From the NCBI GenBank assembly GCA_017542475.1, contig JAFXXD010000008.1, forward strand, positions 1 to 64,000: DNA of 64,000 nt, given 5' to 3'. The stretch is from Ruminococcus sp. GTDB lineage: Bacteria > Bacillota > Clostridia > Oscillospirales > Ruminococcaceae. This document shows positions 3,688-45,118 of this stretch, one piece after another (the first letter of the stretch is position 1; every line of letters starts with the position of its first letter). The translations under genes and the position numbers were made by a program. The notes under the pieces were generated by a model. The model searched no databases, had not been told where the DNA came from, and saw only the letters and a program-made list of their open reading frames with translations.

Positions 3688-3759
3688 TTTACTTGACCTC
3701 CTCGGTCGCTTGTCCACCAATTGCGGAGCATCATCCCATTTGCCACATTTCAACTGTGA

Positions 3760-6957: not shown

Positions 6958-6984
6958 CGGTAATACTTCCTTTCAGTTCAATAG

Positions 6985-7022
6985 AAATACGGCTGCCGAG
7001 ACTATCTCGGCAGCCGTATTTT
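6985..7022 (+). terminator. Terminator of the GH30 gene
   Basis: AATACGGCTGCCGAG / CTCGGCAGCCGTATT stem with a five-base loop and a short T-run. Confidence 0.85.
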
Positions 7023-7047
7023 GCTGTTGCGTGGATCGTTGCGGAAG

Positions 7048-7072
7048 GACGCCGAGGGCGGCGTCCCCTACA
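7048..7072. repeat. Single TGTAGGG palindrome unit
   Basis: GACGCCGAGGGCGGCGTCCCCTACA, the GACGGCGTCCCC form of the modular repeat also seen at 1132, 24391 and 30142. Confidence 0.6.
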
Positions 7073-7073
7073 G

Positions 7074-7106
7074 AAAATGGCGGACAAATCTGTCCGCCAT
7101 TTTTTT
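7074..7106. terminator. Bidirectional terminator between GH30 and GGDEF/EAL genes
   Basis: AAATGGCGGACA / TGTCCGCCATTT stem with A-run and T-run on either side, so it can end both convergent transcripts. The T-run overlaps the stop codon of the minus-strand gene. Confidence 0.8.
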
Positions 7107-10100
7107 ATTCCTTCGGTTTGTGCGGCTTCCACAGAAGAAAATCGCGGAGCTCGAGAGGCTTGCCGTAGTAGTAGCCCTGAAAGCTCTGTATATTGTACTG
7201 CTGTAGTATATCGCGCATTTCCTCTGTCTCGATACCCTCGACGCAGACCTTCGCTCCGAAGGTGGTGGCTATGCCGGCGAAGGACTTGACGAGCTCGCGC
7301 TCCTTCTCGTCCTCCTCTATTTTCAGCACGAAGCTGCGGTCTATCTTGATGGTGTCGAACGGCAGGTTCTTGACAAGTCCCACCGACGAGAAGCCTGTGC
7401 CGAAGTCGTCGAGCGCTATCTGTATACCGTGCGAGCGGAGGTTGACTATGACGTTCTTGAGCAGGTACATATCAAGCAGTCGGCACCTCTCGGTTATCTC
7501 CATACAGAGGTGGTCGGGCGGGAAGCCCTCCTCCTTCAGCGTGCGGAGCACCATATCCACGAAATCGAGCTTTTCGAGCTGGGTGTAGGAGAGGTTGACG
7601 TTGATGACGAAGTCGGGGTGCTCCTCCATAATAAGCTTTGCGCCGTTTATAGCCGTTCTGAGTATCCACTGTCCGAGCTCGCAGAAGAGCGGGTCTTTTT
7701 CAAGGATAGGTATGAACTGGTCGGGCGGTACCATTCCGAACTCGTCGTTTCTCCATCTGAGCAGAGCCTCCGCGCCGACGAGCTGTTCGGTCTCGGCGTC
7801 AACGACGGGCTGATACAGCAGGAAGAAGCCGCGGTAATTCTGCATTATGGATACGCGTATCTCGTAAAGCTTTTCGAGGCGGTGGCGGTTGTTCTCGGTG
7901 AGGTCGTTGTAGAACTCGACGAGCTCGCCCTGCCTCCTCAGCTTGGACTCGCTGTATGCGAAGATGAGGCAGGCGTAGACGGTCTGGTGGTCTATCTCGT
8001 AGTTGTCCACGCACATCATACCTGCGCTGAGGTCGAGTATCAGCTGTCTGTCATTTATAGTGAAGCCCTTTCGGAAGTACGAGCGCAAATCGTTGTAATT
8101 GTCGCGCATCTCCTCGGCATTCTGAGTCTTTGAGAGGACAGCGAACTTCGTGCCGTCGAGCCTGTAGGCGTTTCCGCTGTTGCCGACGTGCTCGAAGAGG
8201 TATCTGCCGAATCTCTGCAATACGTTGTTGCCGAACTGATAGCCGTAGACTTCGTTTATCTCCGAGAACTTGTTGATGACTATCATACAAACGTTGACCT
8301 TGGTGTGCTTGACCATATTCGACTGGATGTCGTCGAAGAAGCCGTACTGGTTCCTCAGACCCGTCAGCGTGTCGATGTGTCCCTGTATGCCGTGGTTGCG
8401 GATAACTCCACCGAAGTATTCGGGCTTGCCGCTGTCGTCGCGGAGCACTATGCCGCGGCAGGTGCACACGTCGTACTCGCCGTTGCGCTTCATTGCACGG
8501 TACTGCATATCGTGTCCCGAGGCGTTGCCTGCGAAGATATCGGTTATGCCTGCGCGGTAGGCGTTGCGGTCATCGGGGTGGATGCGCTCCTCCCATATGT
8601 CGCCAGCCTCGTACATATACTCCGAGGGCAGCTCGAAGCTGTCCACAGCCGCCTTAGACCAGCGCGAGTAGTTGTATCTCATATCGCAGAGGTAGACATA
8701 TGCGCCCTCGGATACGAGCTCGAAAGCCTCGAAGAGGGCAGCGAGCTTGCGCTTTTCCGATTCGGGTATCTCCACTTCCATTTTATCGCGGATATAGTAT
8801 CCCGATTTCAGGCGGTTCTTGTCCTCGTACATCATAATGTCGGCGCGGCTGAACACGTCCGTGAACTTCTTGTCGGTCTGCGGCTCGTATGTCGCGATGC
8901 CCGACGCCACGACAGGACCGTCCTTCCTGTTGAGGTTATCGTGCACCTGATCGCGCAGACGCTCAAACAGCGTCTCCTTGTTGTGGTAGTCGTCGCTGCC
9001 GAGGTAGGCGACGAACTCGTCGCCGCCGATACGGAATATCGGGCTGTGCGTGAAGACGTTGCATATGAGCCTGCAAGCCGAGCGTATGAGCTCGTCGCCT
9101 GCCTTGTGTCCGAGGGTATCGTTGGTGACTTTAAGTCCGTTTATATCGCACAGCACAAGCGCGAACGGCATATAGCTCGCGCCGTTGTCCATATTCTTCT
9201 GCACGGATTCCTCAAGCTCGTGGTAGGCATTCCTGTTCTTGACGCCCGTGAGCTCGTCGCGGCGCGCCATTTCGTTGGCGTGGCTCAGCGCGAGACCCTT
9301 TTCGTGCTCTCTTCTGACCTCCTCGTCGGTATTCTCGACACCGATGATGAGGTGGAGCCTGTCGCTCGCCCACATCGCGGTCATTCTCGTGTGGTGCACC
9401 ATACCCTTGATGAGCAGGCGGTAGTCCGTGACGAACTGCTTCTTCGTTTCAAGCTCGGATATGAGGTTATCCTTGCTCAGTGCGTCAACTACGCGCTCTC
9501 TGTCCTCGGGGTGGAGGAGCTGAGTTCCGTTCCTTATGACGTCGGCGAAGAAGTCAACGCCGTCCTCCTTTAGCTGAAGGCTGCCGTATATGCTGTTGAA
9601 GATGAACTGGCTGTAGGACGAGTTCCTGCTGTCAACGTAGTAGATGAGGTCGTAGTGCAGGGCGAGGCTCTCGGATATCTGGTCGTATACGACGCGCTCC
9701 TTCTCGAGCTTTTCAGCTTCGAGCCTTGCACGCATCTCCTCGTCGATGTTGATGACGCCGAAGATGAAGAAGTCGCTGGCTTCGCCGAGACCGCGTATCA
9801 GTCTGAGCTTGTGGTAGACGGGCTTGCCGTCTATCATCATACGGTAGACTATGCTCTGCATAGCGCCTTCCTTCAGTCTCGTTACGAGACCCTCCTTTTT
9901 CAGAGCCTCGGTCAGGATCGAGCGGTCGTCCTTATAGACGACTCTCTCGGCGTCGCGGATGAGGTCCTCGAAGAAGCTGCTGCCGCTCTGCTGTATCTTC
10001 AGCGAGTGGAAGCCCGAGTCGTTGGAGTACCAGCGGTATTCGCCCGTGACGGCGTTTACATAGTATACGCTTGTATAGTCGATGAGAAGCGCTTCTGCGA

Positions 10101-13759: not shown

Positions 13760-15727
13760 ATGACGAATAAGGCTTCGCGCAAGAGACTTGCGCTTATCAT
13801 TTCAGACCCGAGTGCGGATTACTCGCAGGCGGTCATTACAGGCGTCCGCGACCAGTGCGCGAGGTATGACTACGACCTGCTCGTGTTCAGCACGATGGTC
13901 AAGGTCTGCCACCCCGACAAGCACTACCTCGACGGCGAGCTCAATATCTTCAATCTGATAAACTACGATCTGGTGGACGGCGTGCTCGTGGCTTCGCTCG
14001 CGCTGGTCGAGGATCAGGTCAGGAGCGTCATTGAGAAGCTTGAGGCTGATATGCACGAGAAGTGCCGCAAGCCCGTTGTGTCGCTCGACCTCGAATTCGG
14101 CGGCTATCCGACAGTCTTCGTTGACGACAGGATAGCTATCCGAAATGTTGTGAAGCACCTTGTCGGCGAGCACGGCTGCAAAAGGATATACTGCCTCACG
14201 GGTCCGAAGGACTATTCCGTCTCGGAGGGGCGCGCGGAGGCGTTCTGCGAGCAGATGAGGGCTGAGGGTCTCGATGCGTCGCAGGATAACGTGTTCTACG
14301 GCAACTTTTGGTATACGAGCGGCGAGGAGTTCGCCGACCGTATCATCTCGGGCGAGGTCGCTATGCCCGATGCCGTCGTGTGCGCAAACGATTATATGGC
14401 TATCGCCCTTGCAAACCGCCTGATAAGCGGCGGTATAAGGGTGCCCGAGCAGGTGCGCGTCACGGGCTATGACGCCACCAAGGAGGCATTGTTCAACTCC
14501 ATAAGCATTACGACCTATACCCCCGATGTCTACAGTATGGCGGCTTCTGCTGTTAATCTCATTCACGGAAAGATAGAGCCCGATGTCCCCGAGGTCAGGA
14601 TAGAGCAGCTGACTGATTCGGGCGTGCGCACGGGCGTCAGCTGCGGCTGTATACAGAACGCGGACGACCTCCGCCGCCTCTACGGTGCGGGACTGAATCC
14701 GAACGAGCGCATGAAAAATGCCGACGGAAGCCTGACTGTCAACGATATGCAGGGACTTCACGAGAGCTATATGTTCGAGACGCTGTCCGTCGTTCAGGAC
14801 AAGGATAAGATACTTGATACCATAACCGATGTTGCGTATCTGCTCCAGCCGTACCGCCGCTTTTACCTCGTGCTGAGGACTGACTGGAGCGATACCTCAA
14901 AGCACTGTGTGACAGGCTACCCCGACACTATGCGCTGCGTGCTGCGGTGTATACCGCAGAATGAGACCGTGTATGAAAATGAGCCGCGATATTCCGCCGA
15001 TTCCGAGCAGTATGACTTCCCGACGGAGCAGATGCTCCCCGCGCTCGACGAGGAGCGCGACCAGCCTGTGGTGTTCTACTTCCTGCCGTCGCATTTCAGC
15101 GATGATACGATCGGCTTTGCGGTACTGCAAACCGCTATGGACGCCAAGCGCACGGCTGACGAGGTCTCAACGCTGTGGCTGAGAAATGTCAACAACTCGC
15201 TGCATATGGTGAGAGTAGTGAGCAAGCTCATTGATTATTCTGTCCGCGACCCGCTGACGGGTCTGCTTAACAGACGCGGTCTGGAAATGATGTACGACCG
15301 CCGCAAGGAGAGCCTCGGCGCGGACGACAATATCCTGATATGGATGATAGATATGGACGGGCTGAAATACATAAACGACCACTTCGGTCACGAGCACGGC
15401 GATTTCGGTCTGATATCCATTGCGGAGGCGATGAGGACGGTCTCAGGCGAGGACGATATAGTAGTGCGCATCGGCGGCGACGAGTTCGTTATCATTGCCG
15501 CGGGAGCTCTCACAGAGCAGGACGGCAATGCACGTATCAGAGCCTTCGAGCAGACCCTCGCGGACAAGAACTCCTCGCAGGCAGGCAGAGCGTTCGATGT
15601 CTCGGCAAGTATCGGCTGCGTGGTGTTCTCCGCCGCAGAGAAGGACGCGCTCGACGAAAAGCTAAAGGAAGCCGACCGCCTGATGTACGAGTACAAGGCT
15701 GCACATAAGAAGCTGCGAACTGAATAA
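13760..15727 (+). CDS. Periplasmic-binding-fold sensor fused to a diguanylate cyclase
   Basis: 655-residue protein. Residues about 8-295 are a LacI-like periplasmic binding fold (RLALIISDPSADYSQAVI; CANDYMAIALANRLISGGIRVPEQVRVTGYD) without a DNA-binding head and without a signal peptide, so it senses a cytoplasmic ligand, probably a sugar. About 330-470 is GAF-like. The C-terminal domain from RDPLTGLLNRRGLEMM has an intact active site, RIGGDEFVII, so c-di-GMP synthesis is expected. The two paralogues at 1507 and 31428 share the sensor and middle parts but have a degraded GGDEF plus AraC HTH. GGAGGG precedes the ATG. It sits after exopolysaccharide genes. Confidence 0.88.
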   Translation: MTNKASRKRLALIISDPSADYSQAVITGVRDQCARYDYDLLVFSTMVKVCHPDKHYLDGELNIFNLINYDLVDGVLVASLALVEDQVRSVIEKLEADMHEKCRKPVVSLDLEFGGYPTVFVDDRIAIRNVVKHLVGEHGCKRIYCLTGPKDYSVSEGRAEAFCEQMRAEGLDASQDNVFYGNFWYTSGEEFADRIISGEVAMPDAVVCANDYMAIALANRLISGGIRVPEQVRVTGYDATKEALFNSISITTYTPDVYSMAASAVNLIHGKIEPDVPEVRIEQLTDSGVRTGVSCGCIQNADDLRRLYGAGLNPNERMKNADGSLTVNDMQGLHESYMFETLSVVQDKDKILDTITDVAYLLQPYRRFYLVLRTDWSDTSKHCVTGYPDTMRCVLRCIPQNETVYENEPRYSADSEQYDFPTEQMLPALDEERDQPVVFYFLPSHFSDDTIGFAVLQTAMDAKRTADEVSTLWLRNVNNSLHMVRVVSKLIDYSVRDPLTGLLNRRGLEMMYDRRKESLGADDNILIWMIDMDGLKYINDHFGHEHGDFGLISIAEAMRTVSGEDDIVVRIGGDEFVIIAAGALTEQDGNARIRAFEQTLADKNSSQAGRAFDVSASIGCVVFSAAEKDALDEKLKEADRLMYEYKAAHKKLRTE

Positions 15728-31365: not shown

Positions 31366-31394
31366 TTGATTTTTTTGCTCCCGTGTACTATAAT
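31366..31394 (+). promoter_or_regulatory. Promoter of the second AraC-type sensor
   Basis: TTGATT (31366-31371), 17 bases, TATAAT (31389-31394). Confidence 0.75.
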
Positions 31395-31427
31395 GAATGT
31401 AACCACTATATGACACGGGGTGACGCT

Positions 31428-33596
31428 ATGAGTTCAAAACGTCCTATTATCGCCGTTGTTACCGCTCTCGCGAACGGCTTCGCGGAGAAGGAGCTCCTCG
31501 GCGGCATTATTTCCGAAAACAAGAAGAGCGGCTATGCTACGGTCGTTTTCTCGAATATATACAACATCGTACAGCACGACGACGACCTCCTCTGCGAGCG
31601 TAAGATATACGACCTCGTGCGCTCGCCCGATATCAGCGGCATCATCCTCCTGTGCGAGTCCTTCGTCGAGGAGAATATCCGCCGCCATATCGCGGCTGTC
31701 CTCGCGGGGACGGACGTGCCCATTATCGGCATAGGCACGCGGCTTGCGGAGTTCGACTCCCTCGGCTACGATCTCATCAGTACCGACGACAGAGCCGACC
31801 TCGCTCTGCTGACCTCGCACCTCATCGAGGAGCACGGCTTCACCGATATCGACCTGCTAACGGGTATGGAGCAGATAGAGTCCTCGCGTCTGCGTGCAGA
31901 GGGCTATCTCACGGCACTTGAAGCGCACGGCATTGCTCCCGATAAGGACAAGGTGTTCTTCGGCGACTTCTGGTTCACCTCGGGCGAACAGCTCGCAGAC
32001 CGCTATATAAGCCGCGAGCTGAGGCTCCCGCAGGCTGTCATCTGCGCCAACGATATGATGGCTTACGGTATGCTCCGCCGCTTCTCGGAGGCGGGCGTGC
32101 GCGTGCCCGAGCAGGTCACAGTCGTGAGCTATGAATACTCCGATATCAGGATATTCTACACGCCCGCGCTGACCTCATTCCGCAGGGACAGGCACTCGCT
32201 CGGTACCGCCGCAGCAAAGCGTCTGCAAGCCGTTCTTGAGGGCAGGACTCCGCCCGAATTTGTTCCCCCGCAGGGACAGTTCGTGTTCGGCGGGAGCTGT
32301 CCGTGCAGGGCTGACGAGGCGCAGTCGCTCTCGGAGCTCAGAAACGCCGAGCGCCGCAAGAATTTCACCGACCTCAGCCTGTTCAGCACCATGGAGCACA
32401 AGCTCACGCTCTGCCGCGATATGGACGAGTTCATTCAGATAATCCGCGGTCACCAGTGGATGATACAGGACAAGAAGAATATCTACCTCTGCCTCTACTC
32501 AGACTGGAACGAAGCAGATTCGGACAGGTCCGAGATAATGCGCTCGGTGAGTATCCTCAGCGGGGATAAGCCCTTCGAGATGGATCACCTCGACCTGCGT
32601 GCCTTCTTCGAGCGCGACCACGACGCCGCCGTATGCTACCTCAATCCCCTCTTCTCGGGACAGAAGCTATTCGGCTATATGGCGCTGCTCTATGCCTCCG
32701 CCTCGAGCTATGAGGACGTGTACAGGCACTGGCTGAAATCGGTGTCGATAGGTCTGGAGTTCCTCCGCCTCAAAAACGATATCCGCTACCTCATAAGCTG
32801 TCAGAATGTGTCCGAGTACAGGGACACCCTCACGGGTATGAACAACAAAAAGGGTCTGCGCCGCGCTTTTCAGGCAGTGCTCGTGCACGACAACAGAAAG
32901 CTCTGCTTCGTGACGCTCCGTATCGACCTCTTCCCGAAGCAGCTCAACGACGACGAGATACGCCGCAAGACAGACGCCCTCCTCGGCGTGTCGAAGACGA
33001 TAGCGAGGTTCTGCGGAAATCACGATATTTCGGGATATATGGGCGATGATACCTTCGTCTGCATTATCCAGAGCCACGCCGAGCCCGAGGTCATTGCCGA
33101 CCTGCTGACAGCTGTGCTCTTACAGGAAAAAAACTACATCGGCTACGCGGGTACGAGCTCCTTCGCCTGCTGTGCCATTCCCTGCGGGGAGCTGAGCTTC
33201 GATGAGCTCACTGAGCAGAGCTCGGAGCTCATAAAGGCGGAGCACCGCAGGCTCACCGCGCTCCGCAGGAATAAGAACTACGCGGATATGCTCGCCGTGC
33301 GCGACCGTATCTACTCCGCGACCGAGGCGACCTTCGAGCACGACAGCGATAACATCTACACCGACCGCATCGACTTCTTCCGCCGCAACTATAAGAGCTG
33401 CTTCGGCGTCCCATTCCATCAGGACTGCATAAATGCACGTATCGCCAAAGCCAAGTACTACCTCGCGACTACCTCGCTCGGTATCAGCGATATCTCCGAG
33501 AAGTGCGGCTATGTGGACTACAAATACTTCCAGCGCCAGTTTGCGGCGAGCACGGGTCTGCCCGCGCTCCGCTACAGGAACCTCATCAAGAGCTGA
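31428..33596 (+). CDS. Sugar-sensing regulator: periplasmic-binding fold + degenerate GGDEF + AraC HTH
   Basis: 722-residue paralogue of the 1507-3687 protein with the same layout. Residues about 4-310 are the LacI-like binding fold (KRPIIAVVTALANGFAEKELLGGI; CANDMMAYGMLRRFSEAGVRVPEQVTVVSYE). A GAF-like middle follows, then a GGDEF-type fold after RDTLTGMNNKKGL with the catalytic motif changed to GDDTF. The C terminus has the AraC pair (INARIAKAKYYLATTSL, ISEKCGYVDYKYFQRQFAASTG). No signal peptide. The start is set by GGGGTG ahead of ATG at 31428. It lies directly upstream of the GH5-dockerin endoglucanase, in the same direction, and likely regulates it. Confidence 0.85.
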   Translation: MSSKRPIIAVVTALANGFAEKELLGGIISENKKSGYATVVFSNIYNIVQHDDDLLCERKIYDLVRSPDISGIILLCESFVEENIRRHIAAVLAGTDVPIIGIGTRLAEFDSLGYDLISTDDRADLALLTSHLIEEHGFTDIDLLTGMEQIESSRLRAEGYLTALEAHGIAPDKDKVFFGDFWFTSGEQLADRYISRELRLPQAVICANDMMAYGMLRRFSEAGVRVPEQVTVVSYEYSDIRIFYTPALTSFRRDRHSLGTAAAKRLQAVLEGRTPPEFVPPQGQFVFGGSCPCRADEAQSLSELRNAERRKNFTDLSLFSTMEHKLTLCRDMDEFIQIIRGHQWMIQDKKNIYLCLYSDWNEADSDRSEIMRSVSILSGDKPFEMDHLDLRAFFERDHDAAVCYLNPLFSGQKLFGYMALLYASASSYEDVYRHWLKSVSIGLEFLRLKNDIRYLISCQNVSEYRDTLTGMNNKKGLRRAFQAVLVHDNRKLCFVTLRIDLFPKQLNDDEIRRKTDALLGVSKTIARFCGNHDISGYMGDDTFVCIIQSHAEPEVIADLLTAVLLQEKNYIGYAGTSSFACCAIPCGELSFDELTEQSSELIKAEHRRLTALRRNKNYADMLAVRDRIYSATEATFEHDSDNIYTDRIDFFRRNYKSCFGVPFHQDCINARIAKAKYYLATTSLGISDISEKCGYVDYKYFQRQFAASTGLPALRYRNLIKS

Positions 33597-33717: not shown

Positions 33718-35211
33718 ATGAAGATGAACAGGCTCGTTTCATCCGTAACTGCGGCATTTATGATGCTTTCAGGCATTGCTTCGTCCGCTCCCGCGCCGTC
33801 CTATGCGGCGGGAGAAATGCGCGATATCACAACTATGGAGCTCGTCAGGGATATGGGTATCGGTATCAACCTCGGCAACACCTTCGAGGCGTGCCCCGAC
33901 TGGTACGGCGAGGACTGGATTGCCAAATGGAGCGACGGTAAGCCCAATAACTACGAAACTGCGTGGGGAAGCCCCGTTGTCACAAAGGAAATGATAGAGG
34001 GTATGGCCAAGGAGGGCTTCGGCGTCCTGCGCATACCCGTGGCGTGGTCCAATATGATGGAGCACGACGGCACCTACACCATCAATGCCGAGTACGACGC
34101 GCGTATACACGAGGTCGTTGACTGGACGCTCGAGTGCGGTATGTACTGCATTATCAATATCCACTGGGACGGCGGCTGGGTGAACAAGTTCCCCGACGAC
34201 AAGGAAGAAAGTATGAAGCGCTACTCCCATATGTGGGAACAGATAGCCGAGAGCTTCAGGGACTATGACGACTACCTGATGTTCGAGTCGCAGAATGAGG
34301 AGCTCGGCTGGGAGTCGCTGTGGAACCCGTGGGGCGGTACAGAGGGAAAGGCGGAGTCGTATGCTCTCTGCAATGAGATAAATCAAAAATTCGTTGACGT
34401 GGTAAGAGGCTCGGGCGGAAACAACGCAAAGCGTCATCTGCTGATATCGGGATATAATACGGGATTTGACCGCACCTGCGACCCTCTCTTCAAAATGCCC
34501 AGCGACCCCGCCAACAGAATGGCTGTGTCCGTTCACTACTACACGCCCGCAGGCTTCTGCATTCTCGAGGACAAGGACGAATCATGGGCGAAGGCTCGCA
34601 GTACGTGGGGTACCGACGAAGATTACAATGAGCTCAACGGCTGGATGGATATGATGAAGACCAACTACGTCGATAAGGGCATTCCCGTTATCATCGGCGA
34701 GTACGGCTGTCCCACCAAGGGCAAGGAAGCCGCCTCCGTAAGAAAGTTCATCAGCTCCGTCTGCAAGGCGGCTTACGAGCGCCAGCTCTGCCCCGTGCTC
34801 TGGTCTACTCCCGATTCCACCACCGACGACGGCACCATTATCAAGGGTCACTACGACCGCAAGGCATATAAGCTCGCAGATCAGGAGCTCCAAAAGGAGC
34901 TGTTCGCGATAGGCGGCAAGGAATACTCGCCGCGTGAGGTCGGAACAACCACGACCACAACAGAAACTACAACAACAGAGACTACCACCACTACAGTGAC
35001 TACCGCCACTGAGACTGCTCCCGCGGCTGTAATGGGCGACGTAAACGGCGACGGCAAGCTTGAGGTCGCTGACCTCGTTACCCTCAGCAAATGGCTCCTC
35101 GGAGACAAGGACGCAGACCTCGCAAAGTGGCAGAACGCCGACTTCGACGGCGACGGCAGGATAGATACCTTCGACCTCTGCCTCATGAGAAAAAGCCTTC
35201 TTCTAAAATAG
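33718..35211 (+). CDS. Cellulosomal GH5 endoglucanase with dockerin
   Basis: 497-residue secreted endo-beta-glucanase. Signal peptide about 1-31. GH5 TIM barrel about 35-395: INLGNTFEA, VLRIPVAW, CIINIHWDGGW, the acid/base E194 (QNE), VSVHYYTPAGF, nucleophile E328 (IIGEYG) and LWSTPDS. The barrel resembles subfamily 4, whose members cut cellulose, xyloglucan or mixed glucans. A Thr/Glu linker (about 410-434) leads to a complete type I dockerin (GDVNGDGKLEVADL, ADFDGDGRIDTFDL). GGAGG lies 11 bases ahead of the ATG, somewhat long. It follows the AraC-type sensor but has its own promoter. Confidence 0.92.
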   Translation: MKMNRLVSSVTAAFMMLSGIASSAPAPSYAAGEMRDITTMELVRDMGIGINLGNTFEACPDWYGEDWIAKWSDGKPNNYETAWGSPVVTKEMIEGMAKEGFGVLRIPVAWSNMMEHDGTYTINAEYDARIHEVVDWTLECGMYCIINIHWDGGWVNKFPDDKEESMKRYSHMWEQIAESFRDYDDYLMFESQNEELGWESLWNPWGGTEGKAESYALCNEINQKFVDVVRGSGGNNAKRHLLISGYNTGFDRTCDPLFKMPSDPANRMAVSVHYYTPAGFCILEDKDESWAKARSTWGTDEDYNELNGWMDMMKTNYVDKGIPVIIGEYGCPTKGKEAASVRKFISSVCKAAYERQLCPVLWSTPDSTTDDGTIIKGHYDRKAYKLADQELQKELFAIGGKEYSPREVGTTTTTTETTTTETTTTTVTTATETAPAAVMGDVNGDGKLEVADLVTLSKWLLGDKDADLAKWQNADFDGDGRIDTFDLCLMRKSLLLK

Positions 35212-35451: not shown

Positions 35452-35480
35452 TTGCATTTTCGGGGCTAATGTGGTAGAAT
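35452..35480 (+). promoter_or_regulatory. Promoter of the TIR-RyR unit
   Basis: TTGCAT (35452-35457), 17 bases, TAGAAT (35475-35480), 37 bases ahead of the TIR start codon. Confidence 0.65.
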
Positions 35481-35517: not shown

Positions 35518-38500
35518 ATGGATTACAAGTACAAAGCCTTTATAAGCTACCGCCACCTCGAGCCCGATATGCAGGCGGCGGAGAAATTACAGAAGCTCCT
35601 CGAAAGCTACAAGCCCCCCAAGAACCTCGGCAAGGTCAAGGAAAACTGGCGTATCTTCCGCGATGTGTCGGAGCTGCAGTCGAGCAGCGACCTCAGCGAG
35701 GATATCAAGAACGCTATCGAGACCTCCGAGTATCTCATCGTGATATGCTCGCCGAAATATACCGAGTCGAAGTGGTGTATGCAGGAGCTACAGCGCTTCC
35801 GTGCGCTCCACGACAATACCAATAAGAACATCATCACCCTCCTCGTGAGCGGTGAGCCGCACGAGTCCTTCCCCGAGGAGCTCACCTATACCGAGATGAC
35901 CACCACCAACGAAAAGGGCGAGGAGGTCAAGGTCAAGGTCGAGGTCGAGCCGCTCGCTGCCAATATCAAGGCGGATACGCTCAAGGAGTCGATGAAGAAG
36001 CTCGATACCGAGTACCTGCGTATCGCCGCTCCCCTGCTCGGGTGCGACTTCAACGACCTCTTCCAGCGCGAGAAGCGCCGCGAGGCTGCACGCAGAAGGC
36101 GTATCTTCGGCGGAGTTTCGGGCATACTCTCGCTCATCACCGTGATAAGCGTCGCCTCGGCGGTGACTATCAGCGGCAAGAACGTGAAAATAAAAAAGCA
36201 AAATGAACAGATAAAGGAACAGAACGAGCAGATAGAGGCGAAGAATATCGACCTGCGTATCGAGAACGCGGGTCACCTCGCTGCCGAGTCCGAGAACCTC
36301 TTCAAGGAGAGCAGCCTTATCCCCGCTATTAAGAAGGCGGTGGAGGCTGTGCCGACAGACGATACTCCTGCGCTGCCCGAGGCTGAGTACGCGCTCTCGC
36401 GTGAGCTCGGTATGTTCAAGCACAGCCAGCTCGTGCCGCAGCTCGCACTCAGGCACGAATGTGCGGTAGAGAAGCTCTCGTTTATGGGCGGCGGCAGGTC
36501 CGTAGTAACGCAGGACGCCACGGGTATCTACTTCTGGGACGCCGAAAACGGCAGCCTCATAAAGAAGATAGCGGCGACCGACAGCGAGTTCGTTTCGGAG
36601 ACGGGCGGAAGCTCCAACGAGCTGACGGCTTTCTTCGATGTCAGCCGCGACAAGACTGGCACCTACTACGAGTCTACCGCTACTCCGAGCAGCATCACCT
36701 ATGAGAACAGCTCCGTTTTCAACAAGATCTACACCAACTTCGTGCACTCCGTCGATGACGATGAAGAGGGCACGGGCGGCGACGTTTACGTATACAACTC
36801 CGACAGGACTGTATGGCGTCTCGACGGCGCTACGGGCGAGGTCAAGTGGAAGGCTGAACCCTCCGAGAAGGCGAACACCTACTACAGCGTTAAATTCGAC
36901 GAGAAGTACGTGCTCCGTCTGTATCAGGACAAGAACGTTATGCCGAGCGGTCTTTCCTTCCCCGGCAATGACATCTACCTTGAAATTATCGACCGCGAAA
37001 CAGGTGCGGAGGTCGATTCCGTGAAGGTCACGGACGCTTCAAAGTCCACCTTCGGCTTCCTTATGGATATCTCTGTCCTGACCGTGAATGACGGCGTGCT
37101 CTATGTCTACAGCGAGAACGACAGGGTCGTCAGGGCGTTCGATATAAAGGACCACTCCATCGAGATGAGGAATGAGGTCGAGGTCGGCTTCGCCAACGAC
37201 GGTGGTATCAATAATACCACGTTCAGCTTCGTCGGCGGTGACCCGCTCATTACCGCGTGCAGTGTGCTCGCGTTCGATACAAGGACCTCCTTCACCCGCT
37301 ACGACAGCGAGATGAAGGAGCAGAAGTGGAGCGCGGAGCTCCCGATAAACTATCAGAGCGGCGGCACCGAGTTCCTCATCCCCGCGGGAGATTCGGGCTA
37401 TGACCACGATGTCCTTGCGGTCATGACCAAGTTCTCGCTCTCGTTCATCGACTACGAGGACGGCTCTGTCATCGCTTATATCCCCTTCGACAGCGAGGTC
37501 GTTGACTCGTCGTTCAGCCGCAACGGTCTTGTGATGTTCACCGTCAAGGACGGTGAGGAGTACGTTGTCAGCCTCGGTCACTATACCACGGGCAACAGCT
37601 CCGACAACGCGGCATACAGAGTCCAGAAGATGAACACCGCTGTCTATGTATCCAGCTACAGCCGCGGCAGGTACGCGACCGCCGACAACTACTCCAACAT
37701 CGCGTATATCCAGTACGTCAGCGATAATCCGTCGTACACCGACATCGACGCGGGCGAGTATATGTACGCGCGTGATGTGCTCGCTGTCTCCGAGGACGGA
37801 GCATACGCTGCTGTATCGGCTGCATACTACCCCGACGGCAAGTACACCAACGGCGGCTCCAACGTCGTAAGACACCTCTTCATCTACGACGTGAAGGGTG
37901 AGAAGCTGACCGAGGTCAGCACGCTGAAGGGCTACGAGGTGCACAGCGCGGCTTTCGCCGGTGATACGCTCGTGTTAAACGCCGCCCCCGGCGACAGCTT
38001 TGGCGACGAGATAACAGCGACCGTCGATGCTTCAAGCTGCACATCGGATATCGTCTCCGACGCTCCGCAGGCGCAGCGAAATGGTATGAAGGTAGTCTCC
38101 ACCGATAAGGGCGCGTACTACCTCGCGGATTCGGACAGGAACCTCGTATATGTCACTCCCGACGGCAAGTGCACGCCATGGGCTGTCAAGGACGAGGACA
38201 CCTACAGCCTCGATAAGCAGGTGATCGACGGAATGTATGCCGTTTCCGACAGCAGAGCCGCTATGTATGCGCAGTTCAGCGGCGAGGACGGCAAAAAAGC
38301 CCTCATCGTCCACGATTTCAGCCTCGGTCAGCACGTGACCCTCGAATTCGACCCCGCTGCCGACGAGGGACTTGATGTCCTGCGTATCTTCTGGCAGAAC
38401 AGCGAGACTGTCGGCGTCTTCTTCAGTGACCGCACTGTTTCGCTCTATGACGCCTCCACGGGCAAGCTGAAAAATACCGTATCGCTCAACGGTACAAGTC

Positions 38501-38925
38501 AGGAGCCTGTCTCCGTGATACCGTTCACGTCCAACAGCTTCGCCGTGCTCTGCCGCGACTCGCGCCTCTACGAGATGAACGCCGACGGCTTCACGGGCAG
38601 GAGCTGCCGCCTCGACTTCGCTGACGAGAACGACAACGATATCCGCGAAAGCGACAGCTCGAACGCGGATAAGCTCGATATACAGCCCACCGAAGACGGC
38701 TTCCCCGCCTTTGTCATCTGGAACGGCTCGCAGGCGTGGTATGTCGATGAGGAGAGATTCACCGTAAGATACAGGATAGACGAATTCGCGTGCGCTCCCG
38801 CTACGGGCAGCAGCGTATTTATCAGGGACAAGGACCGCAACAAGATAGGCTTCTTCCCGATATACTCCACTAAGCAGCTGCTCGACGCCGCAAAGGGCTA
38901 CCTCTCGGCTCTCGGAGAAGAGTGA
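35518..38925 (+). CDS. Membrane-anchored TIR domain protein with beta-propeller-like region
   Basis: 1135 residues. The N-terminal TIR domain (about 1-115) opens with YKAFISYRH, then NWRIFRDV, SEYLIVICSPKY and SKWCMQELQRF; E90 sits where the catalytic glutamate of NAD-cleaving TIR domains lies. A conserved post-TIR segment follows (VEPLAANIKADTL, RIAAPLLGCDFNDLFQREKRR, about 144-188). One membrane helix is at about 196-218, then a coiled coil (IKKQNEQIKEQNEQIEAKN). The remaining ~850 residues look like WD40/PQQ-type propeller repeats, with motifs such as GIYFWDAENGSLIKK and VWRLDGATGEVKWKAE, facing outside if the usual topology holds. AAGGAG precedes the ATG. The downstream RyR protein is 12 bases away. 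A defence or stress role is inference. Confidence 0.85.
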   Translation: MDYKYKAFISYRHLEPDMQAAEKLQKLLESYKPPKNLGKVKENWRIFRDVSELQSSSDLSEDIKNAIETSEYLIVICSPKYTESKWCMQELQRFRALHDNTNKNIITLLVSGEPHESFPEELTYTEMTTTNEKGEEVKVKVEVEPLAANIKADTLKESMKKLDTEYLRIAAPLLGCDFNDLFQREKRREAARRRRIFGGVSGILSLITVISVASAVTISGKNVKIKKQNEQIKEQNEQIEAKNIDLRIENAGHLAAESENLFKESSLIPAIKKAVEAVPTDDTPALPEAEYALSRELGMFKHSQLVPQLALRHECAVEKLSFMGGGRSVVTQDATGIYFWDAENGSLIKKIAATDSEFVSETGGSSNELTAFFDVSRDKTGTYYESTATPSSITYENSSVFNKIYTNFVHSVDDDEEGTGGDVYVYNSDRTVWRLDGATGEVKWKAEPSEKANTYYSVKFDEKYVLRLYQDKNVMPSGLSFPGNDIYLEIIDRETGAEVDSVKVTDASKSTFGFLMDISVLTVNDGVLYVYSENDRVVRAFDIKDHSIEMRNEVEVGFANDGGINNTTFSFVGGDPLITACSVLAFDTRTSFTRYDSEMKEQKWSAELPINYQSGGTEFLIPAGDSGYDHDVLAVMTKFSLSFIDYEDGSVIAYIPFDSEVVDSSFSRNGLVMFTVKDGEEYVVSLGHYTTGNSSDNAAYRVQKMNTAVYVSSYSRGRYATADNYSNIAYIQYVSDNPSYTDIDAGEYMYARDVLAVSEDGAYAAVSAAYYPDGKYTNGGSNVVRHLFIYDVKGEKLTEVSTLKGYEVHSAAFAGDTLVLNAAPGDSFGDEITATVDASSCTSDIVSDAPQAQRNGMKVVSTDKGAYYLADSDRNLVYVTPDGKCTPWAVKDEDTYSLDKQVIDGMYAVSDSRAAMYAQFSGEDGKKALIVHDFSLGQHVTLEFDPAADEGLDVLRIFWQNSETVGVFFSDRTVSLYDASTGKLKNTVSLNGTSQEPVSVIPFTSNSFAVLCRDSRLYEMNADGFTGRSCRLDFADENDNDIRESDSSNADKLDIQPTEDGFPAFVIWNGSQAWYVDEERFTVRYRIDEFACAPATGSSVFIRDKDRNKIGFFPIYSTKQLLDAAKGYLSALGEE

Positions 38926-38937
38926 AAGGACAGATAA

Positions 38938-40896
38938 ATGAACAATAACAAGAGCCGCAAAAGAACTACGCGGCTGATATTCCTGCTCGCTGTGCTGTCG
39001 TTCCTAATAGCGACGGCGCAGGGACTTATCTACTACAGAAACTATGAGGCGTTCTTCAAGTATCTGCTCGTGCTGCAGAACAGTATCAACGCCTTCGGCT
39101 TCAAGGCTACCGTCACGCTGAAGGACACTGTCGCCTTCATCAAGGACGACCCGTCACCGCTGCACAAGGGTATCGGCTACGCCTACTGCGTCGCGGTATT
39201 CACCGCTCCGTACTGCACGATATCCTTCATATACAAGTTCCTCGAGAGGCTACTGCGCTTCATCATCTTCTTCCGCAGGAACAGGAACTGCCGCCATATC
39301 GTGGTCTTCGGCTACAACGACGACGTGAAGTCGATGATAAAGAACAATACCTCCGACCCGAAGAAGGTCTGCATCCATATCGTGACCGCAGAGCCCGTCG
39401 CCAGCGAGGAGGTCTACCGCCTCAACAGGTCGGGCTATATCGTCCACTCCGCTGACGTGCTCAAGGCTAAGGAGGCGGAGCTCCCCGCTCTGCTCGCAAA
39501 GACGCACATCGAGGACGCGACAAACATCATCCTCTTCGAGAGCTCGTCGATACGCAATTTCTCGCTGCTCCAGCTCTTCCGCCTCAATGAGAAGGACTCG
39601 CCTGACAGGATAAGGCTCGCAGCAGGGACAAAGGTGTCGTGCAGGTGCGAGGAGGAGGGCATCGGGCGGCTCATCGCCGAATACTACAACAGCGCCGCGG
39701 GCAGCGACGCCTGCTTCGACCTCGAGCTCGTGGGTCTGCCCGAAATGCAGATACACAAGATGTACTCCGACCACCCGCTCCACACGGTATACAGGGGCAC
39801 GGACACGCCGCTCAAGGACTGGAACGTCCACCTGCTCGTGGCGGGCTTCGGTCAGCTCGGTCAGCAGGCGGTATTGCAGGCGATGAACCTCGGCGTCGTG
39901 CACGAGAGCAACCGCATAGTCATCGACGTCTTCGACTGCAATATCAGAACGAAAAAGGCGGTCTTCCTCAATCAGTTCAGCCGAGGGAGCTTCGATATCT
40001 CCGACGATAAGGCTGTGCTGAGAAGCGGAGTCGCCGACGGTCTGCTTGAGATAAACTTCCACGAGCTCAACGTCGCACACGTCGGCTTCTTCGATACCGT
40101 CCGCAGCAGGCTCGGCTCCGAGCCGTATACATACGCGGTCATCGCTCTTGAGAACATCGACCTCTCCGTCAGCTGCGCTATGCAGCTCGAGGAGATATTC
40201 TCCGAGTGCGGGCTCAAGCTCCCGATACTTATGCGTATGGATACCGACCGCAGGCTCGCGGGGTATATCTCCGCCGATGACGGCGCTCTCACGGACGTCT
40301 GCCTCATCGACGACAGGAGCGTCGTGATAACCCTCGATATGATAATCAACCGCGCTATCGACCGCAGCGCCAAGGACTACAACCACTTCTACAACAATAT
40401 CGCGCTCATTACCGCCGATGAAGCGGGCGCGGCAGACAACTCCGAGGACGACCCCGAGCAGGAATGGAACCGCCTGAGGCTGTTCCGCCGCTCGTCAAGC
40501 AAGGCTGCTGCCTACCACGACGAGGTCAAGGACGACATCATCCCCAAGCTCGCAGCCGAAAACGGTACAGAGCTCGCCGACAAGCTCGAGGAGCTCATCG
40601 GCAGGAACGGCTCGCTGATGAGGTATACGGGCTCGGCATGGCAGATGATAGGCTCGGAGGAGGAGCTCCTCGACGCTATGAAGCGCGACAGCTTCGCGTA
40701 TGAGCTCGCGGCTCTCGAGCACAGGCGCTGGTGCTGCTATATGGCTTCCATAGGCTGGCGTGCGGGCGAGCGCAGCGACAAGCTCCGCCGCAATCCCTGC
40801 CTCGTCACTCAGCAGGAGCTTATGGAGAAAATGCCCGAGATGTGCAAGTACGACCTGATGTCCCTTATGGCAAGATACAGGAAAATGAACAACTAA
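38938..40896 (+). CDS. Membrane protein with tandem Rossmann (TrkA-N-like) and RyR domains
   Basis: 652 residues. Two hydrophobic helices (about 12-33 and 80-111) frame the N terminus. A first Rossmann-like domain starts at RHIVVFGYNDDV (119-130), a second at VHLLVAGFGQLGQQ (297-310, GxGxxG), as in tandem RCK/TrkA-N ligand-binding modules. The C-terminal ~60 residues (ELAALEHRRWCCYMASIGWRAG, KLRRNPCLVTQQEL) match the RyR domain named after ryanodine receptors and also found in bacterial nucleotide-signalling conflict proteins. No TVGYG-type potassium filter lies between the helices. It is translated 12 bases after the TIR gene with AAAGGA ahead. A membrane effector gated by a nucleotide-derived ligand is inference. 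Confidence 0.8.
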   Translation: MNNNKSRKRTTRLIFLLAVLSFLIATAQGLIYYRNYEAFFKYLLVLQNSINAFGFKATVTLKDTVAFIKDDPSPLHKGIGYAYCVAVFTAPYCTISFIYKFLERLLRFIIFFRRNRNCRHIVVFGYNDDVKSMIKNNTSDPKKVCIHIVTAEPVASEEVYRLNRSGYIVHSADVLKAKEAELPALLAKTHIEDATNIILFESSSIRNFSLLQLFRLNEKDSPDRIRLAAGTKVSCRCEEEGIGRLIAEYYNSAAGSDACFDLELVGLPEMQIHKMYSDHPLHTVYRGTDTPLKDWNVHLLVAGFGQLGQQAVLQAMNLGVVHESNRIVIDVFDCNIRTKKAVFLNQFSRGSFDISDDKAVLRSGVADGLLEINFHELNVAHVGFFDTVRSRLGSEPYTYAVIALENIDLSVSCAMQLEEIFSECGLKLPILMRMDTDRRLAGYISADDGALTDVCLIDDRSVVITLDMIINRAIDRSAKDYNHFYNNIALITADEAGAADNSEDDPEQEWNRLRLFRRSSSKAAAYHDEVKDDIIPKLAAENGTELADKLEELIGRNGSLMRYTGSAWQMIGSEEELLDAMKRDSFAYELAALEHRRWCCYMASIGWRAGERSDKLRRNPCLVTQQELMEKMPEMCKYDLMSLMARYRKMNN

Positions 40897-40920: not shown

Positions 40921-40960
40921 AAAAAACCGTAAGGGAGCTGTGCTCCCTTACGGTTTTTTC
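40921..40960. terminator. Bidirectional terminator after the TIR-RyR unit
   Basis: CCGTAAGGGAGC / GCTCCCTTACGG stem with a three-base loop, flanked by A6 and T6. It closes the TIR-RyR transcript and that of the convergent lipid kinase. Confidence 0.9.
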
Positions 40961-43324: not shown

Positions 43325-45118
43325 TTATTTCGTAAGCAGTTTTCGCATTGAACAAAGGTCGAATATATCAAGTCTGCCGTCATTGCACAGATCTCCAGCT
43401 TGCCAATTTGAAAGCTTTGCGTCGGGATCTGCAAGAAGCCATTTCTGCAATAGTACCAGGTCGGACACAGTAAAGCTGCCGTCACAGTTGACATCACCTT
43501 CGACATCGGTGATACTGCGATAGCGGAACTGATAGGAACTTGCATCAGGATCCATCAAATCCGTCCATTCGGATTCTTTTGTATACTTGTGCTGCTCGAC
43601 CTTCACTCTGTTCTGATAATCATATGCTTTGTACCAAACCTGACCGCCGTTGCCGCAGACAACTTTATTGCCCGCCTGCGTCTTGGCAAGATAGTAGGGG
43701 TGACCCTCATCATCTCCCTGATCGTAAACGTTCATATCTGCGTTCGGCATGACTATCTCATCATAGCTGCTAAAACGAGAGGTCTTTTCGTAATTGCACT
43801 CACAGGGGAATGAACCGCCGGGGATGCAGTAATGATAGAAGTATTCCTTCACACAAACTCTGGCATCGGAGGTCTCCAGCGGATAATCCTTGTTGGTGTA
43901 GACCCCGCCGGTGTTCTCCCACATCGTCTTGGCAACGCCATTGTCATGCCAATCCTTGCCGGGAGACTCGACTCCGAGCTTTTCATAGCGGTTCTTATAC
44001 TCTGTTATAGTAAGATCGGGATCGTTTTCTTTTGGAACTGCAGAACAATAGGTCCATGTCTGAGCACCGCCAACAACGAAATCGACCGTATCGATAGTTT
44101 GCTTGGAGCCGTTTTCGCGGACTGCATTCAGTACAGCACGGTAATTTCCGTCCTCTAAGGCAGTAACAGCAGAGTTCAGTTCAGCAGTTTTTGTCAGTTC
44201 AAGCGATTCCGATGTACCAAGATCGGTGATCTTCAATACAACTGATTTAGCATTACCATCAAGTGTCCATTTAAAATTCGTCTTGCCTGTACCTGCGTCT
44301 GGTGTCACCAACAGATCGCCTTTTACGGGAGCCTCTTCAACAGTAAAGACCACGCTGTCCGAGAAGGTGAATTTATCATGCGAATTGACTGACGCGATGT
44401 TTGCGAAATACTTTCCTGCCGGCAGAACTATACTGTAGGTAGTTCCGTCTTTATAGCCAAATAGAGTCTTATAGTCTGTTTCTGTTTCGTAGATATAAAT
44501 ACGGATATCATACCACTCTGTATCAGAGCAGGCTGTCCATGTCAGGACCGTATTTGTTTCGGAATTTCCCGCATTAACAGTCAGTGTCGGCTTTGAAGGG
44601 GTCGGAGCGAGCTCATATATGTAGCTGAAGCTGTCAGGGTTCACATTCACACGCCCTCCCGAGCCATACATACTTGTTGCATAGGCAAAATGCAGATGTG
44701 GTCCCGTGCTGTTTCCTGTCGTTCCAAGCTCACCGATCTTTTGTCCCTGTTCTACCCACTGACCGCTTGATACACAGTAGGAATTCAGATGCGCATAGTG
44801 GGAATAATAGCCGTTGCCGTGATCAATAACGACACCGTTGCCGTAGCCGTACCACTTACCTGCTACATCGCCCGTAAATGCACCGACAACAGTTCCCGAC
44901 CGCACCGCACATACATCCATTCCTATCGTGCCGCCGATATCAAGTCCGTCATGACTGGAAGAGTAGTATGTGTTGATCTGGCGCGAGGCAGGAACAGGCC
45001 AGTAGTAGCCATCCACATCCGCAGATGCGAATCTCGCAGGAGTTACCGAGATGATCGTAAACACAGAGAATAATACTGCAATAAGACAACTGATAAGCTT
45101 TGATCTTTTCATTTTCAT
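43325..45118 (-). CDS. M23 family metallopeptidase with C-terminal dockerin
   Basis: 597-residue secreted protein. Signal peptide about 1-33. M23 (LytM) peptidase domain about 38-165 with all zinc and catalytic residues: H56 and D60 (SHDGLDIGG), HYAH at 107-110 and HLH at 141-143. Such enzymes cut peptidoglycan cross-links. The middle has beta-sandwich-like segments (about 175-345) and a Cys-containing region of unknown function. A type I dockerin ends the protein (GDVNCDGSFTVSDL, GDLCNDGRLDIFDL). Dockerin attachment of a wall peptidase is unusual. It lies in the putative island, with codon use more A/T-rich than the other dockerin genes. A weak GGGTG precedes the start. Confidence 0.88.
   Translation of the reverse strand: MKMKRSKLISCLIAVLFSVFTIISVTPARFASADVDGYYWPVPASRQINTYYSSSHDGLDIGGTIGMDVCAVRSGTVVGAFTGDVAGKWYGYGNGVVIDHGNGYYSHYAHLNSYCVSSGQWVEQGQKIGELGTTGNSTGPHLHFAYATSMYGSGGRVNVNPDSFSYIYELAPTPSKPTLTVNAGNSETNTVLTWTACSDTEWYDIRIYIYETETDYKTLFGYKDGTTYSIVLPAGKYFANIASVNSHDKFTFSDSVVFTVEEAPVKGDLLVTPDAGTGKTNFKWTLDGNAKSVVLKITDLGTSESLELTKTAELNSAVTALEDGNYRAVLNAVRENGSKQTIDTVDFVVGGAQTWTYCSAVPKENDPDLTITEYKNRYEKLGVESPGKDWHDNGVAKTMWENTGGVYTNKDYPLETSDARVCVKEYFYHYCIPGGSFPCECNYEKTSRFSSYDEIVMPNADMNVYDQGDDEGHPYYLAKTQAGNKVVCGNGGQVWYKAYDYQNRVKVEQHKYTKESEWTDLMDPDASSYQFRYRSITDVEGDVNCDGSFTVSDLVLLQKWLLADPDAKLSNWQAGDLCNDGRLDIFDLCSMRKLLTK

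Follow-up and report, generated by a model that had tools for sequence, protein, structure and literature searches.

A conserved Ruminococcus gene pair encoding a TIR-propeller protein and a predicted two-helix membrane protein with RCK-like domains and a RyR tail

We analyzed a 64,000-nucleotide (nt) stretch of DNA from Ruminococcus sp., a rumen bacterium (GenBank assembly GCA_017542475.1, contig JAFXXD010000008.1, positions 1 to 64,000 of the forward strand), referred to here as the window, and focused on a cassette of two adjacent genes within it. Gene 1 (35518 to 38925, + strand; 1135 amino acids [aa]) was delimited by its open reading frame (ORF), Pfam, and a structural model, and encodes a TIR domain, a transmembrane (TM) helix, a probable coiled coil, and a β-propeller. 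Gene 2 (38938 to 40896, + strand; 652 aa), delimited by its ORF, model, and Foldseek, encodes a predicted two-TM protein whose cytoplasmic part contains two RCK-like domains in tandem and ends in an RyR domain. The cassette is a self-contained, conserved pair. The best explanation that we can offer, at somewhat short of an even chance, is that a nucleotide made by the TIR domain binds the RyR domain and gates a pore formed by gene 2, most likely in defense.

An initial annotation of the window, made from its letters alone, had proposed this cassette, and the pair proved to be conserved well beyond the source strain. We examined 27 related loci, 26 of the Ruminococcus type and 1 from Lachnospiraceae (L028). 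A TIR-propeller gene lay immediately upstream of gene 2 in 26/26 Ruminococcus-type loci, and in those 25 loci with an intact TIR 3′ end the computed spacing between the two genes ranged from −11 to +19 nt. The broken or truncated loci were L002, in which the TIR frame is broken; L005, which begins inside the TIR gene; and L024, in which gene 2 is broken and cut by the contig end. Among 60 sampled genomes of the genus Ruminococcus, gene 2 was found in 15 and gene 1 in 16, with all 15 in common, and the genes were adjacent in 14 of the 15 genomes having gene 2. Gene 2 was present in 2 of the 197 genomes of a family sample, and a profile of its family (A1) run over 398 phylum genomes recovered the window and two weak partial matches, which we excluded as relatives. 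In L028, a gene 2 homologue (32% identity) starts 9 nt after the gene for a different TIR protein (TIR_2, 4.3e-13), and direct comparison of the latter with gene 1 found no significant similarity. In Fusobacterium vincentii, a gene 2 homologue (21% identity, covering 97% of the query) starts 3 nt after a gene for a TIR-WD propeller protein; gene 1 and that protein share 35% identity across 316 alignment columns (residues 3 to 265 of gene 1).

Conservation was distributed unevenly along both proteins. In gene 1, mean pairwise identity was highest in the segment linking the TIR domain to the TM helix (0.87), followed by the TIR domain itself (0.82), the TM helix (0.75), and the propeller (0.44 to 0.47), the least conserved part of the protein. 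In gene 2, for which P0005 was excluded, the RyR domain was the best conserved part (0.81), followed by the membrane part (0.74) and the Rossmann domains (0.67 to 0.68). Because the TIR and RyR domains are conserved and the propeller varies to this extent, the pair reads as a constant putative enzyme and receptor combined with a changing input domain.

The TIR domain of gene 1 (about aa 5 to 135; 35530 to 35922, +) scored above the curated Pfam threshold (TIR_2, 2.1e-15, 57.7 bits versus a cutoff of 28). The initial annotation had pointed to the glutamate of its WCxxE motif, and this residue, Glu90, which we take to be the putative catalytic residue, was invariant in 19/19 aligned TIR sequences (gene 1 and 18 of 26 orthologues). 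Hydropathy indicated a single hydrophobic TM stretch at about aa 194 to 221. According to DSSP, the model continues with a helix at residues 218 to 263, probably a coiled coil, and then a long β-strand region; the TM helix (about aa 196 to 218) and the long helix together span 36103 to 36306 (+). The propeller region (about aa 303 to 1116; 36424 to 38865, +), placed by PQQ_2, Foldseek, and the identity profile, matched PQQ_2 at 1.2e-12 (48.5 bits versus a cutoff of 27.6), and the Foldseek matches listed for it were WD-propeller proteins, including the tandem WD protein Utp21, at low TM-scores. No TIR structure was among the 50 Foldseek matches listed for the gene 1 model, the TIR part of which has low confidence. 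Judged by eye, positive charge is more abundant N-terminal to the TM helix, and the propeller probably lies outside the membrane.

ORF, Pfam, hydropathy, and model thus agreed with the TIR-TM-coiled coil-propeller gene initially placed at 35518, and gene 2 indeed starts 12 bases after it, across a gap (38926 to 38937, +) that carries an AAGGA ribosome-binding-like site. The strong terminator proposed at 40921 to 40960 was confirmed as a hairpin at 40921 to 40959, with 18 pairs, a folding energy of −28.2 kcal/mol, and a z-score of −7.6 (0/200 shuffles equally good). Because it stands between convergent genes, it is probably bidirectional. A pattern scan for terminators had no entry for this hairpin, the U run of which is perhaps absorbed into the stem. 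The promoter proposed at 35452 to 35480 was not supported, as the pattern scan listed no site there and one site elsewhere in the region, versus 2.2 in shuffles.

Turning to gene 2, hydropathy and the A1 alignment placed its membrane part at 38962 to 39243 (+), with a strong TM1 (aa 9 to 34), a weaker TM2 (about aa 74 to 102, the hydrophobic stretch itself at 84 to 102), and between them a conserved loop (about aa 38 to 70) that carries LQNSINAFGFKA. The predicted structure contains two Rossmann-type, RCK-like domains, at about aa 119 to 290 (39292 to 39807, +) and about aa 297 to 475 (39826 to 40362, +), the second of which bears GFGQLG. The best Foldseek matches of the model were RCK gating rings: LjCASTOR (9.2e-8), the GsuK RCK (4.5e-7), MtDMI1 (1.4e-6), and Slo1 (5.0e-5). 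Gene 2 itself did not match TrkA_N in Pfam; its relative L046 combines TrkA_N (1e-14) and RyR (4.1e-18) in one protein. Profile comparison of A1 with a group of 2TM-Rossmann-RyR proteins (A7) gave a probability of 97.5 and an E value of 5.4e-12, extending from TM1 to RyR, while the two-sequence A6 profile gave a weak match (probability 82) covering the second Rossmann domain to RyR alone. We did not use the hhalign comparison of A1 with A2, which is circular, gene 2 being in both. On the strength of the RCK matches, the TrkA_N/RyR relative, and the A1-A7 link, we read gene 2 as a 2TM protein whose cytoplasmic part is a tandem of RCK-like domains followed by an RyR tail, and its soluble part is predicted to fold like a channel gating ring. 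Hydropathy, model, and PDB matches largely agree with the initially proposed layout of two TM helices (the second of them weak), two Rossmann-like domains, and a C-terminal RyR domain, and the passing suggestion that the protein is perhaps a channel has gained strength from the modeled fold.

The C-terminal RyR domain (about aa 586 to 652, with EHRRW at 594 to 598; 40693 to 40893, +) likewise survived profile checks, though it is below threshold in Pfam. Phmmer against PDB matched gene 2 to an RyR1 chimera (8.4e-7) and to the bacterial "Putative ryanodine receptor" 3nrt (0.011), and the family profile matched RyR1 (1.2e-7) and RyR3 (0.0011). Gene 2 relatives reach 65.9 RyR bits, and the homologous L046, L051, and L053 exceed the Pfam cutoff. 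A candidate ligand is suggested by the phage RyR-domain protein RyDEP, which, in a preprint of May 2026, is reported to cleave 2′- and 3′-cyclic ADP-ribose (cADPR); 6/8 homologues bound both, and the ligand pocket comprises H75, W78, H100, and D117 (PMC13232231). RyDEP H75 and W78 are retained in 15/15 bacterial RyR domains that we aligned with it. H100 is replaced by Asn in gene 2, likewise in 4/15 of the aligned domains, and D117 has no certain counterpart in gene 2, which has a longer loop with D639 3 columns off. Because of these two positions, the gene 2 RyR domain is likelier to bind a ligand of this kind than to cleave it.

RyR domains were associated with TIR genes across genomes. RyR matches occurred in 10/398 phylum genomes and 27/391 class genomes, the window's genome being counted in both. 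In the class sample, TIR_2 was present in 22/27 RyR-positive versus 101/364 RyR-negative genomes (P = 3.9e-8; P = 1.0e-7 without the window's genome). Moreover, TIR_2 lay within 3 kb of RyR in 14 of 33 distinct non-window RyR genomes, with 0.17 expected (P of about 8e-25), statistics that ignore shared ancestry. The initial annotation had cited a link between RyR and NAD/ADP-ribose-type systems, and an association this far beyond chance speaks for it. DUF4062, a family reported as TIR-like NADases (PMC13174449), was near RyR in two further genomes (G407 and G528), and some other RyR loci adjoin TIR-NACHT/STAND proteins. The scaffolds of TIR-linked RyR domains vary from stand-alone domains to a family of ~575 aa, AAA proteins, and 2TM proteins. 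This variety points to RyR as the part answering to TIR.

Several of these loci deserve description in their own right. Proteins of about 575 to 650 aa with a C-terminal RyR domain stand directly beside TIR genes at L049:6537-8273, L050, L094, L095, and L028; their N-terminal part is HD-like by eye, and Pfam matches RyR alone. The L028 member (P0004) is the 650-aa downstream neighbor of the gene 2 homologue and has a weak C-terminal RyR match (E value, 0.075). At L051:7812-13066 (−), genes for a 2TM-Rossmann-RyR protein, a TIR protein, and an AAA-RyR protein follow one another, so that one TIR gene stands between two RyR genes. L052:7814-10408 (−) encodes 864 aa in which RelA/SpoT (58.6 bits) is joined to RyR at the C terminus (40.3 bits), with a further, subthreshold match to the prokaryotic TRPM-type SLOG domain (22 versus 25.4 bits). 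It is possibly a nucleotide synthetase with two nucleotide-sensor domains.

Sequences and models show the pairing, a TIR domain with a conserved glutamate, a fold like that of a gating ring, an RyR domain that keeps part of the ligand pocket, and the TIR-RyR association; from these we infer the following course of events. The gene 1 propeller would receive a cue, upon which the TIR domains would cluster and turn NAD+ into a cADPR-type nucleotide. This product would bind gene 2, probably a multimer with an RCK gating ring, at the C-terminal RyR domain, and thereby switch the two-helix pore in the membrane to another state. The altered ion flux would lead to cell arrest or death, most likely as defense. 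The interpretation first attached to the cassette was similar, and its conserved pair, TIR glutamate, RyR-TIR tie, and channel-like responder held up. A stronger statement, which we regard as possible though less likely than not, is that gene 2 represents a bacterial RCK-ring channel opened by a TIR-made cADPR isomer at its RyR domain, and that RyR is a common TIR-signal sensor on many effectors, with channel-like, HD-like, AAA, RelA/SpoT, and stand-alone members.

Several observations weigh against such a TIR-gated pore. The membrane part of the gene 2 model has a mean pLDDT of about 43 to 66, and Foldseek TM-scores in the top five rows were just 0.31 to 0.45. Inspection of A1 and A2 by eye showed no canonical K+ selectivity filter (TxGYG type), and the loop motif AFGFKA is not retained in Fusobacterium or the other groups. 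The Pfam score of the gene 2 RyR domain (PF02026; E value, 0.0031; 18.1 bits) is under the gathering cutoff of 27.4, and the replaced H100 and uncertain D117 count here too, as does the neglect of ancestry in the linkage statistics. Outside the window's family, channel-type RyR genomes were TIR linked in 2/14 cases (G293 and G320), with DUF4062 in one more (G407); 10 of these 14 were assigned by alignment or Pfam and 4 (L083 to L086) by eye, together with a subthreshold TrkA_N match in L083. Among the other 11, 10 have a TIR gene elsewhere; two genera account for 8/11, and the contigs are in part short. Within the genus, G998 (88% complete) has gene 1 with a different gene after it and no gene 2, and G979 has the two genes on separate contigs. 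G979 also carries a different TIR gene convergent to the gene 2 homologue (L111:3919-5007 beside 5154-7175, −).

The genomic surroundings bear on the defense role, which is plausible. In Ruminococcus loci, no complete defense system was evident in the two nearest ORFs per side, and these flanks gave no defense-island signal. PADLOC, applied at 1e-10 to 68 of 87 neighbor ORFs from 22 loci, matched 57 families; among the 25 listed, mad3 was matched in 4 members, mad8 in 2, and the other 23 in one each, mostly GajB (UvrD-helicase) models. The flanks of the 22 loci were largely dissimilar by eye, with four groups of 2 to 3 loci sharing common flanks. Gene 2 homologues were absent from a phage collection at 1e-5 and, by close-relative patterns, from viral contigs. 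We rejected plasmid carriage of gene 2, the lone match being in a 2.1-Mb record resembling a chromosome. That record, NZ_CP084075.1 (L031) of Fusobacterium vincentii, has one annotated feature and is filed as a plasmid. The same signaling chemistry could therefore serve envelope, osmotic, or metabolic stress (e.g., ion homeostasis) instead of phage defense, as the housekeeping-type neighbors, the missing phage and viral homologues, and a propeller probably outside the membrane would suit. We consider this unlikely, if well worth keeping in mind, since the patchy presence in the genus (15/60), the varied flanks, and the fast-changing propeller suit a conflict role, as do the TIR-NACHT/STAND proteins beside other RyR loci.

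A second alternative assigns the sensing to the RCK domains. RCK/TrkA_N folds are known to bind nucleotides, and gene 2 has a fold of this kind and keeps GFGQLG in its second Rossmann domain. The RCK domains might directly detect a nucleotide such as NAD(H) or ATP whose pool the TIR domain shifts, thereby gating gene 2, with RyR in a purely structural or dimerizing role. Against this stand the better conservation of RyR than of the RCK domains (0.81 versus about 0.68) and the TIR-linked RyR domains that stand alone or on other scaffolds, and we deem it improbable.

A shade less probable again is that gene 2 is an off-switch, its RyR domain degrading or sequestering the TIR product, like phage RyDEP, to restrain gene 1. 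The reported activity of the RyDEP family on cADPR isomers (PMC13232231) and the retention of the pocket His and Trp would allow it, but with Asn at H100 and an uncertain catalytic Asp, cleavage is disfavored, and neither a sponge nor a hydrolase would need a membrane gating-ring scaffold. Finally, it is very unlikely that the two proteins work by direct contact in a single complex, with TIR as a scaffold and no nucleotide diffusing between them: tight pairing and membrane location of both partners would fit, but the TIR glutamate is invariant, the TIR partner may be an unrelated protein (L028), and the genes may be unlinked (G979).

As to the window around the cassette, a dockerin-bearing GH5 cellulase gene lies directly upstream of the pair (33718 to 35211), and a dockerin-bearing M23 peptidase gene lies downstream (43325 to 45118, −). 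The gene at 31383 to 33596 encodes a fusion of sugar-binding Peripla_BP_3, GGDEF, and an AraC-type helix-turn-helix; two others, at 1507 to 3753 (−) and 13760 to 15727, have N termini resembling this fusion by eye.

Among known systems, Thoeris likewise joins a TIR protein (ThsB) to an effector (ThsA), and known Thoeris TIRs are reported to make 2′/3′cADPR or related signals (PMC13232231 and PMC11204291). Gene 2, however, is neither a SIR2-SLOG nor a macro-domain ThsA and matched nothing in PADLOC and NCBIfam at 0.01. Gene 1 gave partial, weak matches to Thoeris models (ThsB, 1.1e-4; ThcB4, 26.3 bits versus a cutoff of 220). We therefore do not count the pair, which lacks recognized ThsB/ThcB and ThsA-type components, as Thoeris. 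RyDEP shares the cADPR-pocket His and Trp with gene 2, but is a small soluble phage counterdefense protein, whereas the gene 2 RyR domain differs at H100 and perhaps at the Asp, is fused to a 2TM-RCK scaffold, and stands beside a TIR gene. CASTOR (PMC6697748), DMI1, GsuK, and Slo1 are RCK-ring channels in which TM helices are followed by a gating ring of tandem RCK fold, as modeled for gene 2; unlike them, gene 2 has a C-terminal RyR domain, a TIR partner, and no K+ filter, and its conduction is presumed. SLATT is a two-TM protein found beside TIR and predicted to be gated by ADP-ribose derivatives (PMC9503650). With gene 2, as predicted, it shares the two TM helices, and it also shares the TIR neighbor. 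To our knowledge, SLATT proteins have neither an RCK ring nor an RyR domain; a weak DUF4231 match, below cutoff, was found in a neighbor gene at one related locus only (L048).

No bacterial TIR-RyR operon or RCK-RyR protein was described among the literature matches listed, in agreement with the initial statement that no system with this exact pair had been characterized, and neither TIR-RyR operons of bacteria nor channel fusions are a topic in the available part of PMC13232231. An RCK gating ring joined to RyR would thus be a type of TIR-operon effector for which we found no description, although an earlier one may exist. The widest comparison is with animal ryanodine receptors, in the regulation of which cADPR has been implicated (PMC13232231). 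As in gene 2, a ligand-binding RyR (R12) domain is carried by a membrane protein of channel type; phmmer and profile searches confine the similarity to that domain, and gene 2 differs in being bacterial, with two TM helices and an RCK ring. In animal calcium signaling, it has long been asked whether nucleotides of the cADPR type act on RyR domains directly, and PMC13232231 has raised the question again. If gene 2 is such a TIR-gated channel, the cassette would be a prokaryotic immune-type counterpart of cADPR/ryanodine receptor signaling, would add a gated-channel effector to TIR signaling, and would hint at the origin of the RyR proteins with which phages capture TIR signals. As a compact bacterial pair, in which a putative enzyme is accompanied by a small gating-ring protein bearing just one RyR domain, it would offer an in vitro test of the cADPR-RyR question.

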